64,000 nucleotides of DNA from an uncultured Clostridia bacterium (GTDB taxonomy: Bacteria > Bacillota > Clostridia > Oscillospirales > Ruminococcaceae). The DNA lies in the NCBI GenBank assembly GCA_947625125.1, contig CANQNF010000012.1, positions 1 through 64,000 of the forward strand. The letters run 5' to 3'. Position 1 is the first letter of the stretch; each line of letters starts with the position of its first letter. The notes beneath the pieces were generated by a model. That model saw only the letters and a list, made by a program, of their open reading frames with translations. It was not told where the DNA came from and made no database searches. Both the position numbers and the translations under genes were made by a program. Shown piece after piece: positions 5,528-63,358 of the stretch.

Positions 5528-5663
5528 CGAGCCCCCTCTCCTCCCGCCGGGGGGCGAAGCCCCCGGGGTCCGGCTTCGCCGGACCCGAAACGGCGCGAAG
5601 CGCCGTTTCCGTCGGCCGCAGGCCGACGGGGCTTCGCCAGGAGGCGGGAGAAGTAGGGGGCGG
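5528..5663. repeat. GC-rich hairpin-array element A (family 1)
   Basis: Successive hairpins GGGGGC-GAA-GCCCCC, GGTCCGGC-TTC-GCCGGACC, AAACGGCGC-GAA-GCGCCGTTT, GTCGGCC-GCA-GGCCGAC inside an outer inverted repeat (CCCCCT...CCCGCC / GGCGGG...AGGGGG). Confidence 0.85.
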
Positions 5664-13897: not shown

Positions 13898-14000
13898 TGC
13901 GGGCGGAGCCCGGAGCCGGCGAAGCCGGCCCGCTTCCCCGAGCCCCAACGGGGCTCGGGGAAGTCCCCCGGCCGCAGGCCGGGGGACGGGCTCCGCGCAC
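13898..14000. repeat. GC-rich hairpin-array element B (family 1)
   Basis: GCCGGC-GAA-GCCGGC, CCCCGAGCCCC-AAC-GGGGCTCGGGG, CCCCCGGCC-GCA-GGCCGGGGG, enclosed by GCGGAGCCCG / CGGGCTCCGC. Confidence 0.85.
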
Positions 14001-14592: not shown

Positions 14593-14732
14593 GGGGTATC
14601 ATCCTTTCTGTGCTAAGATGGAAGTATTATGCTCCGGCATGCGGGAAATTATACAGCGCGCCCGACCGCGGGCACAGGGCTTCGGCAGGCTCCTCCGCCT
14701 AAGATTTATCCACACCCTTGCGGCTCCTGCGA

Positions 14733-14825
14733 AGCCCCGGCCCGCGCACAAGTGCGCGGGCCCCGAGCCCGGCAAGCCGGGCTCGGGCCTCCGGCTGAAA
14801 GCCGGAGGGGGCTTCGCCCCCGTAC
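14733..14825. repeat. GC-rich hairpin-array element C (family 1)
   Basis: GGCCCGCGCAC-AA-GTGCGCGGGCC, CCGAGCCCGGC-AA-GCCGGGCTCGG, CCTCCGGCT-GAA-AGCCGGAGG, GGGGGC-TTC-GCCCCC in succession. Confidence 0.85.
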
Positions 14826-17648: not shown

Positions 17649-17798
17649 CGGGCCTGCCCCCGAAAGCTCGCGGGTAAGCAGCCCGCGGCCCCCTGACCTG
17701 AAAGGTCAGGGGGCCCCTCGGCCGAAGGCCGAGGCCCGTGCGCCCCTTTGGGGCGCACGGGCGCGGGCTGCGCCTCGCAGGAGGTTCGGGCAGGCCCG
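17649..17798. repeat. GC-rich hairpin-array element D (family 1), inside mreD-mrdA gap
   Basis: CCCCCTGACCT-GAA-AGGTCAGGGGG, CCTCGGCC-GAA-GGCCGAGG, CCCGTGCGCCCC-TTT-GGGGCGCACGGG; outer GGGCCTGCCC / GGGCAGGCCC. Confidence 0.87.
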
Positions 17799-19920: not shown

Positions 19921-20094
19921 AGCCGCGGCCCAAAAATAGGTCGGGCGCCCGGAAGCTTGCGGGTAGCCCGACCTTTGTTAAACGAGCCCGCGCCCGGCTG
20001 TCGCCGGGCGCCCGCCCCCCAAAAAGGGGGGCGGGCCTCCGACGGCGAAGCCGTCGGAGGGCGGGCTCCCGCAGAAGGTAGCGGGGCCGCGGCC
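19921..20094. repeat. GC-rich hairpin-array element E (family 1)
   Basis: GCGCCCGGC-tgtc-GCCGGGCGC, CCCGCCCCCC-aaaaa-GGGGGGCGGG, CCTCCGACGGC-GAA-GCCGTCGGAGG; outer AGCCGCGGCCC / GGGGCCGCGGCC. Confidence 0.85.
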
Positions 20095-56298: not shown

Positions 56299-56350
56299 CT
56301 GCGTGGGCGGAGCCCCCCGGCAGCTTCGCTGCCGGGGGCTCCGCCCGCAG
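56299..56350. repeat. GC-rich hairpin element F (family 1)
   Basis: CTGCGTGGGCGGAGCCCCCCGGCAGC-TTC-GCTGCCGGGGGCTCCGCCCGCAG, one long nearly perfect hairpin. Confidence 0.87.
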
Positions 56351-59031: not shown

Positions 59032-59157
59032 GGCGGCTTCTGCTGACCTTGGGCGGAGCCCCCGGCCGCAGGCCGGGGCGCCGTCGGCGAAGCCGCCGGC
59101 GTGGTCGGCCGGCTGAAGCCGGCCGACCGGGGCTCCGCCCCGGCAGCAGAAGCCGCC
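59032..59157. repeat. GC-rich hairpin-array element G (family 1)
   Basis: Perfect ends GGCGGCTTCTGCTG / CAGCAGAAGCCGCC; inner GGGCGGAGCCCC / GGGGCTCCGCCC; hairpins CCCCGGCC-GCA-GGCCGGGG and GGTCGGCCGGC-tgaa-GCCGGCCGACC. Confidence 0.9.
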
Positions 59158-61532: not shown

Positions 61533-61819
61533 TTTCGGCACCTCCTGAAGATATTTACGCCCTACGGGTCGATAAGGCGCATTTAGATTGCCTCCCTCCG
61601 GTCAGTTTCCGCACCTTTTGGGAGAGCCCCAAGCGGCGGGTCGCTGCGTTTTGTTTGCGGGCACACTAAAAAGACCCCGCAAAGAGGTAGAATTATAATA
61701 CCACGTCAAGAACGGTTTGTCAAGGGTTTTTTTGAAAAAATGCCTATAAAACGAAGAATTCGGGACCCGAGGATGGGGGCGAAAGCTTGTTTGCGGAAAC
61801 CCGCAGGGGAGTGCGGGGG

Positions 61820-61907
61820 GGCGGAGCCCCGGGCCCGCGAAGCGGGCCTTTCGTCGGCAAAGCCGACGAAAAAGCCGGCCGCAAAGCGGCCGGCTCGGGG
61901 CTCCGCC
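61820..61907. repeat. GC-rich hairpin-array element H (family 1, 88 bp)
   Basis: GGCGGAGCCCCG-GGCCCGC-GAA-GCGGGCC-TTTCGTCGGC-AAA-GCCGACGAAA-AAGCCGGCCGC-AAA-GCGGCCGGCT-CGGGGCTCCGCC. Confidence 0.92.
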
Positions 61908-61930
61908 GTGGCAGAAGCTACAGAAAAGCG

Positions 61931-62779
61931 CTATCTTTTGATTTCGATGAGCACGACCTCGGGGCGGTTGTTTACCCGCACCGGGATGAGGCTGTTGCCG
62001 ATACCTCGGCTTATCACGGTGTATCTGCCGGAAAACTCGTGCACCCCCTGGTAAAATTCCGGGAAGAACATCTGGTCGGGCGCGATCAGCCCTCCTATAA
62101 AAGGTATACGGGCCTGACCGCCGTGTGCGTGTCCGCAGACCGTCAGGTCCGCTCCCGCTTCGGCATACTCTTTGGCAAACTGCGGGCGATGACTTATTAA
62201 AAGGTTAAAGAGGCCGTCCTGCTCCAACGATCTGATCAAATCAAAATCGGGGTATTTCCTGTCGCAAACGCCCATTATATTGACCGCCACGCCGTCCATG
62301 ACAAAGAGCTCGGAGCTGTCCCGAAGAAGATGAACGCCGGCGTCCTCAAGAGATTTCAGCACCTCGGCATAAATCTCCGGCGGCAGGCGCTCCTCATGAT
62401 TTCCCGTGACATAATAGACCGGCGCGATCTGGGCAAGAGTTTCCATCAGCGAGACTGCGGCGGAAATGTCGCTGACCCGCGAATCGACAAGGTCGCCAGA
62501 AACGGTTATCAGGTCTGGCTCAGTCGACGCCGCAGCCTTAATCAGCGGGCCGTAATCACGGGGCTCGGGCTTTACATGTATGTCGGAAAGGTGGCAGATA
62601 CGTAGCCCCGCCAGGCTTTCGGGGAGGGCCTGCGAAGCGATCTCATAGCGAGCAAGCTGAATGGCGGTGTTTTCGTAAACGGCGTAGCCGATGGCCGCGC
62701 AGGTAAGAACTCCGACTGCGGCGGCTATCCCGACCGCCCTTTTCGCGGCCTTTTTCGACGGTTTTTCAGCAGTCATCAC
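61931..62779 (-). CDS. Metallophosphoesterase with N-terminal TM
   Basis: GLRICHLSDIHVKPEP, LITVSGDLVDSRVSD, PVYYVTGNHEE, LTVCGHAHGGQARIP. Confidence 0.95.
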   Translation of the reverse strand: MMTAEKPSKKAAKRAVGIAAAVGVLTCAAIGYAVYENTAIQLARYEIASQALPESLAGLRICHLSDIHVKPEPRDYGPLIKAAASTEPDLITVSGDLVDSRVSDISAAVSLMETLAQIAPVYYVTGNHEERLPPEIYAEVLKSLEDAGVHLLRDSSELFVMDGVAVNIMGVCDRKYPDFDLIRSLEQDGLFNLLISHRPQFAKEYAEAGADLTVCGHAHGGQARIPFIGGLIAPDQMFFPEFYQGVHEFSGRYTVISRGIGNSLIPVRVNNRPEVVLIEIKR

Positions 62780-62849
62780 AAGGCTCCTTTCAGTGGTTTT
62801 TGTTTATTATAGCATATTTTTTCCGGGATGGCAAGGGCATGCGGCGCAT

Positions 62850-62914
62850 CAAGAATACAGAATTCAGAAATCAGATGACAGAATTTCAAGGTGTCGCCTG
62901 CGGCGACAATTTAA
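62850..62914. repeat. Family-2 dispersed repeat (inverted copy of 12866-12930)
   Basis: catcaagaatacagaattcagaaatcagatgacagaatttcaaggtgtcgcctgcggcgaca. Confidence 0.8.
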
Positions 62915-63039
62915 AAACAGTGACAACGCGGGCGACCGAACGCCCCTGCTAATTTTGTATGCTCCCCGTACCTCCTGCGCACCGCCCGCACCGGGGGACT
63001 GCGAGCCGGAACCTTGCAGAATCCATCGGGATAGTGCAA

Positions 63040-63127
63040 GGCGGAGCCCCGGCCCGCTCCGCGGGCCTTTCGTCGGCTTCGCCGACGAAAAAGCCGGCCG
63101 CCGGGGCGGCCGGCTGGGGGCTCCGCC
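63040..63127. repeat. GC-rich hairpin-array element I (family 1, 88 bp, sibling of H)
   Basis: GGCGGAGCCCC-GGCCCGC-TCC-GCGGGCC-TTTCGTCGGC-TTC-GCCGACGAAA-AAGCCGGCCGC-CGGG-GCGGCCGGCT-GGGGGCTCCGCC. Confidence 0.92.
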
Positions 63128-63281
63128 CCCTCGGGTCAGCAGTCCCTGCGGGCGAAGAAAACGGCATTGCAGGAGGCGGGAGGAGGAGCACGCACGCCAA
63201 AAACGCACATTACCCCCGAAATTCCTTAAAACCCCTTGACAGACTCCGAAAAACGTGCTAAAATAAGGGCGTTCCGCGTTT

Positions 63282-63358
63282 GTCTGCGTAGCTCAGTTGG
63301 ATAGAGCGACCGCCTCCTAAGCGGTAGGTCGGGTGTTCGAGTCACCTCGCGGACGCCA
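63282..63358 (+). tRNA. tRNA-Arg (anticodon CCT), CCA encoded
   Basis: GTCTGCG acceptor, CCGC-CTCCTAA-GCGG anticodon arm, GTGTTCGAGTCAC T-arm, G-CCA end; TTGACA-17-TAAAAT promoter upstream. Confidence 0.97.

Follow-up and report, generated by a model that had tools for sequence, protein, structure and literature searches.

Frozen stems and flipped loop tips in a dispersed family of three-hairpin DNA repeats from an uncultured Clostridia bacterium

Palindromic, intergenic, high-copy repeats that form hairpins at the DNA level and fall into species-specific sequence families include the REP (repetitive extragenic palindromic) sequences, BIMEs (bacterial interspersed mosaic elements) and REPINs (REP doublets forming hairpins). 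In REPINs the arms are conserved and the interior is less so (PMC3116915). REP sequences and REPINs have a tag of GTAG or CGTC type, conserved at the base of one hairpin of 20-40 bp, and a REP-associated tyrosine transposase (RAYT, or TnpA-REP). Here we describe two elements, H and I, and the family to which they belong, in a window of 64,000 nucleotides (positions 1 to 64,000, forward strand, of contig CANQNF010000012.1, assembly GCA_947625125.1) from an uncultured Clostridia bacterium of the Ruminococcaceae. REPINs are the closest known kind, and the family shares the properties named above, including conserved arms around a less conserved interior. It differs in its fixed cloverleaf of three hairpins capped by GNA triloops, held by one closing stem and carried on a variable shaft, and no RAYT was found among the Y1 transposases checked, which are all IS200-type.

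Other described systems share some features. ERIC (enterobacterial repetitive intergenic consensus), RU and MITE-like (miniature inverted-repeat transposable element) imperfect palindromes are likewise non-coding, intergenic, present in many copies and ~130-320 bp long, but the family described here has a perfect multi-hairpin head partly decoupled from its shaft, and it has no known terminal repeats or target duplications. Integron attC sites have GTTRRRY/RYYYAAC boxes, extrahelical bases and an integrase; the heads here are perfect palindromes. The terminal repeat of the parvovirus AAV (adeno-associated virus) has small GC-rich hairpins with triloops, two arms on a common stem, and flipped forms. 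It offers an analogy only, with no homology claimed: here there are three arms, no virus and no replication protein. Small inversions in chloroplast DNA and template-switch spacer inversions also leave a perfect stem whose loop is inverted, including GAA<->TTC (PMC8604942); such flip-flop inversions are sporadic events at single loci, whereas here they recur across a repeat family with many replicate events per genome. Neither the fixed three-hairpin cloverleaf nor the GNA caps nor the decoupled head turned up in the open-access literature searched.

H and I belong to a dispersed, non-coding intergenic family of an uncultured gut-type genus, in which a head, made of a closing stem (GGCGRAGCCCC and variants) around exactly three perfect, GC-rich hairpins, sits on an imperfectly paired and variable shaft. 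The H head reads GGCGGAGCCCC G GGCCCGC-GAA-GCGGGCC TTTCGTCGGC-AAA-GCCGACGAAA A AGCCGGCCGC-AAA-GCGGCCGGCT C GGGGCTCCGCC, and its predicted fold has three hairpins on a four-way junction (z = -8.5 against shuffles). The original prediction held that H and I are identical in their stems and different at all three loop tips; this stands, with exact coordinates, since all 76 paired bases agree and the loops of I are TCC, TTC and CGGG. Outside the tips the two heads differ at two linker positions, an extra G after the left arm of H and a C (H) or G (I) before the right arm. Their parts are as follows.

61808-61819, + strand: left shaft motif of H, GGAGTGCGGGGG, a GAGTGCG motif common to other subfamilies
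61820-61907, + strand: H head, closing stem 61820-61830 / 61897-61907 around three hairpins (sequence, detector, fold, and model R1 at 50.9 bits)
61832-61848, + strand: H hairpin 1, GGCCCGC-GAA-GCGGGCC (sequence)
61849-61871, + strand: H hairpin 2, TTTCGTCGGC-AAA-GCCGACGAAA (sequence)
61873-61895, + strand: H hairpin 3, AGCCGGCCGC-AAA-GCGGCCGGCT (sequence)
61908-61923, + strand: right shaft motif of H, GTGGCAGAAGCTACAG, with GCAG(A/T)AGCTACAG as in stretches L008 and L015
62966-63039, + strand: left shaft of I, homologous to L018 and L019 (87-89% over ~320 bp)
63040-63127, + strand: I head, stems as in H, loops TCC, TTC and CGGG (sequence, detector)
63128-63185, + strand: right shaft of I, homologous to L018 and L019

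L-numbers denote sampled genome stretches; L018 holds a copy on contig C21 and L019 a copy on contig C34. The genome of the window is G000, its sister species is G018, and G009, G014, G016, G022 and G028 are further genomes with elements.

Closing arms are enriched in the window, with 12 matches at no more than one mismatch where 2.3 would be expected (a level reached in 0 of 100 shuffles), and a pattern search of the whole genome returned 16 more elements that share these closing arms but have other hairpins. A structure-only detector, which ignored sequence, allowed two to five hairpins inside a closing stem and did not count single-hairpin forms, found 30 elements in 444 kb of G000 and none in an order-2 Markov control; all 30 had three hairpins. 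Searching by closing arms alone, with hairpins not required, also gave three hairpins almost every time. The genome as a whole would hold ~200 elements, a rough extrapolation because several stretches were picked for holding elements. In the sister species, 108 three-hairpin elements were found in 422 kb (stretches chosen around model hits); their stem sequences differ from those of G000, and 44 distinct heads occur among 107. The same architecture with unrelated stems is present in G009, G014, G016 and G028 and in two contigs of uncultured Clostridia from rabbit-gut metagenome-assembled genomes. The closing-arm pattern matched 3 of 394 genomes in an order-wide set, all of this genus, though elements with other closing arms would escape it.

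The anomaly of these elements is that their stems are frozen. Across ~50 copies of the G018-A subfamily the stems are almost invariant, with flanks down to 30-80% per-site conservation. Ten nearest-neighbour pairs from the sister species share their heads; between the members of these pairs 174 of 1469 shaft sites have changed (12%) against none of ~480 stem sites, and the loops have changed at 8 of ~90, six of these eight changes amounting to two exact flips. Since the loops change no faster than the shaft and the stems do not change, it is the stems and not the tips that are anomalous; the loops are not hypermutable. The comparison of stem and loop rates that had been proposed at the outset bears out the view that conserved stems with varying tips are not neutral decay. 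Compensatory stem changes, which were likewise to be looked for, are present between families but rare within them, with two or three events in the ~50 G018-A copies. Correction within each hairpin is not the main cause of the frozen stems, because it predicts many such changes within a family.

Differences at the tips can for the most part be put down to hairpin inversion together with drift inside the GNA motif, and tip cleavage is unnecessary. Among non-modal loops, 36 of 64 in the sister species and 7 of 32 in G000 match the modal loop exactly once reverse-complemented. Intermolecular template switching inverts a spacer and leaves its arms unchanged, mostly where the arms are long, and its products include GAA->TTC (PMC8604942; PMC8794818). 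This hallmark, a loop exactly reverse-complemented between unchanged arms, is present here, in keeping with one of the options listed in the original prediction. No flips were seen in ~100 copies of three common 7-bp outer stems, against 19 in 49 copies of a 9-bp middle stem; middle stems of 10-11 bp are flipped in ~40%. L015 and L015b, which stand in tandem and are 96% identical across 299 bp, have GCA and TGC at one tip, and L010 and L011 differ by GAA/TTC. At tip 1 the GAA of H, reverse-complemented, is exactly the TTC of L018, and at tip 2 its AAA, treated likewise, is exactly the TTT of L019 in the same orientation; the corresponding loops of I, TCC and TTC, each lie one transition further. 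Tip 3 (AAA in H, CGGG or ATG elsewhere) shows no flip and needs several changes. Shuffling of whole hairpin modules was set aside as weak, with a few four-gamete cases in the sister species and none in G000.

Four lines of evidence favour a DNA structure. Triloops follow GNA (TNC on the other strand) in 361 of 386 cases (93%), compared with 100 of 264 in hairpins elsewhere in the same DNA (p ~1e-51), and 383 of the 386 are closed by a C-G pair. GNA triloops are described as extraordinarily stable DNA minihairpins by Yoshizawa et al. (1997), as cited in PMC6479982. G-T pairs make up 9 of 1344 stem pairs (0.7%), as against 26 of 402 (6.5%) in the resident tRNAs (p ~1e-10). None of the elements overlaps a gene predicted by our home-made gene finder, though 71-77% of the DNA is coding, and shaft orientation is random with respect to the genes on either side, as judged from 14 tandem cases in G000 and 21 in the sister species. 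Taken together, the GNA caps, the scarcity of G-T pairs, the intergenic placement and the random orientation argue for a DNA-level structure. A stop codon often lies a short way before an element, at a median distance of 86 nt in G000. No Rfam match exceeded the gathering score and no T-tract follows the heads in the printed flanks; the last of these, with the lack of orientation bias, speaks against an intrinsic terminator.

Heads are partly decoupled from the shafts that bear them. Many copies in G000 have GAGTGCG, and with it AGTGCG, on the left and GCAG(G/A)AGG on the right; an outer stem follows, for example GCGGCCGGA/TCCGGCCGC. The sister species has longer shafts, again imperfectly paired, and its units are often arranged in tandem at 230-480 bp. 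The head is inverted relative to the shaft at L071:8339, where hairpin order is reversed against the GAGTGCG motif, and at L159:2357, where it is inverted against its flanks. The neighbouring elements L147:8030 and L147:8299 have left shafts 89% alike and differ in two hairpins, and four other nearest shaft pairs in the sister species carry different heads. I and the C21 and C34 copies are alike over ~320 bp, H resembles them in the head only, and the exact H middle stem exists in these four copies alone genome-wide. The proximal shaft of H is closer to those of L008, L015, L010 and L002 than to that of I, on the moderate evidence of short motifs. As far as its sequence goes, H looks like an I-type head joined to shaft motifs of another family. 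The differing shafts rule out a simple recent local duplication of H and I, the case that had been named as telling against the original prediction. Tandem arrays of two or three units, with periods of ~240-410 bp, usually identical heads and shafts 5-35% diverged, occur at L138, L148 and L156 of the sister species.

On balance, H and I are probably REPIN-like non-autonomous repeats whose head is copied or exchanged as folded DNA and whose tips vary by inversion and GNA drift. The head would be the unit that passes between loci, as folded single-stranded DNA or as a cruciform; from its decoupling from the shaft we infer REPIN-like copying by some enzyme, and heads may be younger than the shafts carrying them. 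Template switching in replication, or recombination between the arms, would invert a hairpin so that the perfect stem is unchanged and the loop is reverse-complemented, and the middle base of the GNA loop may be nearly free, allowing tips to drift. More tentatively, the head may be a mobile cassette, a single-stranded DNA cloverleaf of 75-90 nt that an enzyme reads by its shape and GNA caps, not by its sequence, and copies into existing shafts.

Some observations count against copying of the head as folded DNA. A mobilising gene was not found, and a search for headless, 'empty' shafts returned no headless shaft junctions; with neither gene nor empty site, head copying is only inferred. The likeness of the H shaft to another subfamily consists of short motifs only, and family-specific selection could be the source of the frozen stems. 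Perfect stems are favoured by the detector, but it would not have hidden compensatory changes, and the comparison of ~50 G018-A copies did not require perfection. The flip data mix the effects of stem length and middle position, and 10 copies of a 9-bp outer stem capped by the four-base loop TCGC had no flips. The data are mostly draft assemblies.

IS200 or RAYT proteins found little support as mobilisers: all Y1 proteins checked are of IS200 type, and their number does not track element copy number across species. For three full-length Y1_Tnp copies in G000 the scores are 33-39 bits with the RAYT model (NF047646, cut-off 80) and 148-153 with the IS200 model, and Y1 had no match in several element-bearing species such as G009. 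Hairpins near IS200 genes are scattered, one array lying within 150 bp of such a gene. In G000 some ten genes or gene fragments for IS200-type (Y1) transposases are present (noted at L025, G000:C2:119118-119474), one of which is broken by two stops. Phage and plasmid collections gave no match; in viral contigs the anchor matched 21 times by chance, and the three-hairpin architecture was absent from all of these.

Among the rival explanations, family-specific purifying selection would make the heads binding sites of a DNA-binding or structural protein (a nucleoid protein, gyrase or a nuclease), with stems kept in place and no movement. It fits stems that lack even compensatory changes within a family, as sequence recognition predicts, and the constant intergenic placement, but dozens of unrelated heads per genome can hardly be one protein's targets by sequence, and head type is partly uncoupled from the shaft; we consider it unlikely. 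Ectopic gene conversion among heads, for example by SbcCD-like cruciform cleavage and repair from another copy, would homogenise heads and not shafts, and would account for identical heads at loci with diverged shafts and for tandem neighbours that usually share a head. It is nevertheless a distinctly unlikely explanation: identical heads differ in their loops, so that fast flipping must follow conversion, and a change of head type on similar shafts requires template exchange between unlike heads.

The remaining rivals concern RNA and the tips themselves. A structured RNA (an mRNA stabiliser, a terminator or a small RNA) selected for base pairing is very unlikely. The strong fold and the frequent location soon after stop codons would suit it, but pairs that would be G-U are ten times rarer than in tRNA, and it is opposed by the absence of gene-relative orientation bias, of an Rfam match and of a T-tract in the printed sequences, and by the few within-family compensatory changes. 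Least credible is an option raised in the original prediction, in which a hairpin nuclease acting with fill-in directs mutation to the tips. In its favour, H and I do differ at all three tips, and the third shows no flip. The close pairs do not support it, since tips there change no faster than the shaft and the changes are mostly exact flips or conserve GNA, and the three common 7-bp stems show no flips.

Hairpins that flip while their stems stay frozen point to an undescribed type of mobile or self-copying bacterial DNA repeat. The fixed number of three hairpins, together with GNA caps and heads decoupled from their shafts, suggests a DNA cloverleaf recognised by its shape, which would be a new route of persistence for small repeats in bacteria; if the mobile-cassette proposal were true, dozens of unrelated heads would coexist as competing intragenomic replicators. 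Some 200 replicate sets of perfect hairpins with inversion-recording tips amount to a natural assay for bacterial template switching, and strain genomes could show how the inversion rate depends on stem length, on position and on the direction of replication.

The window holds further elements, listed here without strand.

5553-5638: three-hairpin element, closing GGCGAAGCCCC; related to C4:87014-87098 (L073:7014), one tip being flipped (GCA/TGC)
13903-13996: three-hairpin element, closing GCGGAGCCCG; GAGTGCG motif on the - strand
14729-14817: three-hairpin element, closing GCGAAGCCCC (detector)
17678-17771: three-hairpin element, closing GCAGCCCGCG, then GCAGGAGG (detector)
19984-20068: three-hairpin element, closing GAGCCCGC, then GCAGAAGG (detector)
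56306-56345: degenerate relative with H/I closing arms and a single hairpin
59052-59139: three-hairpin element, closing GGCGGAGCCCC, with an imperfect middle stem

The one-hairpin form at 56306-56345 may have arisen from a three-hairpin head by deletion. A gene for a YaeI-like metallophosphoesterase (61934-62779, - strand) sits between H and I, and a tRNA-Arg(cct) follows I at 63282-63358. An AT-richer second repeat (CAGAATTCAGAAATCAGATGACAGAATTTCAAGGTGTCGCC...) at 62852-62910 adjoins I, and similar stretches flank L006, L009, L015 and several heads of the sister species. Around the phosphoesterase gene in relatives, elements lie nearby in G016 and G022, with no clear site orthologous to those of H and I. 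The G022 element (L034:1390-1474) has three hairpins, another closing stem and GAGTGCG upstream, and stands just before the phosphoesterase gene; it suggests that the GAGTGCG motif outlives the sequence of the closing stem.
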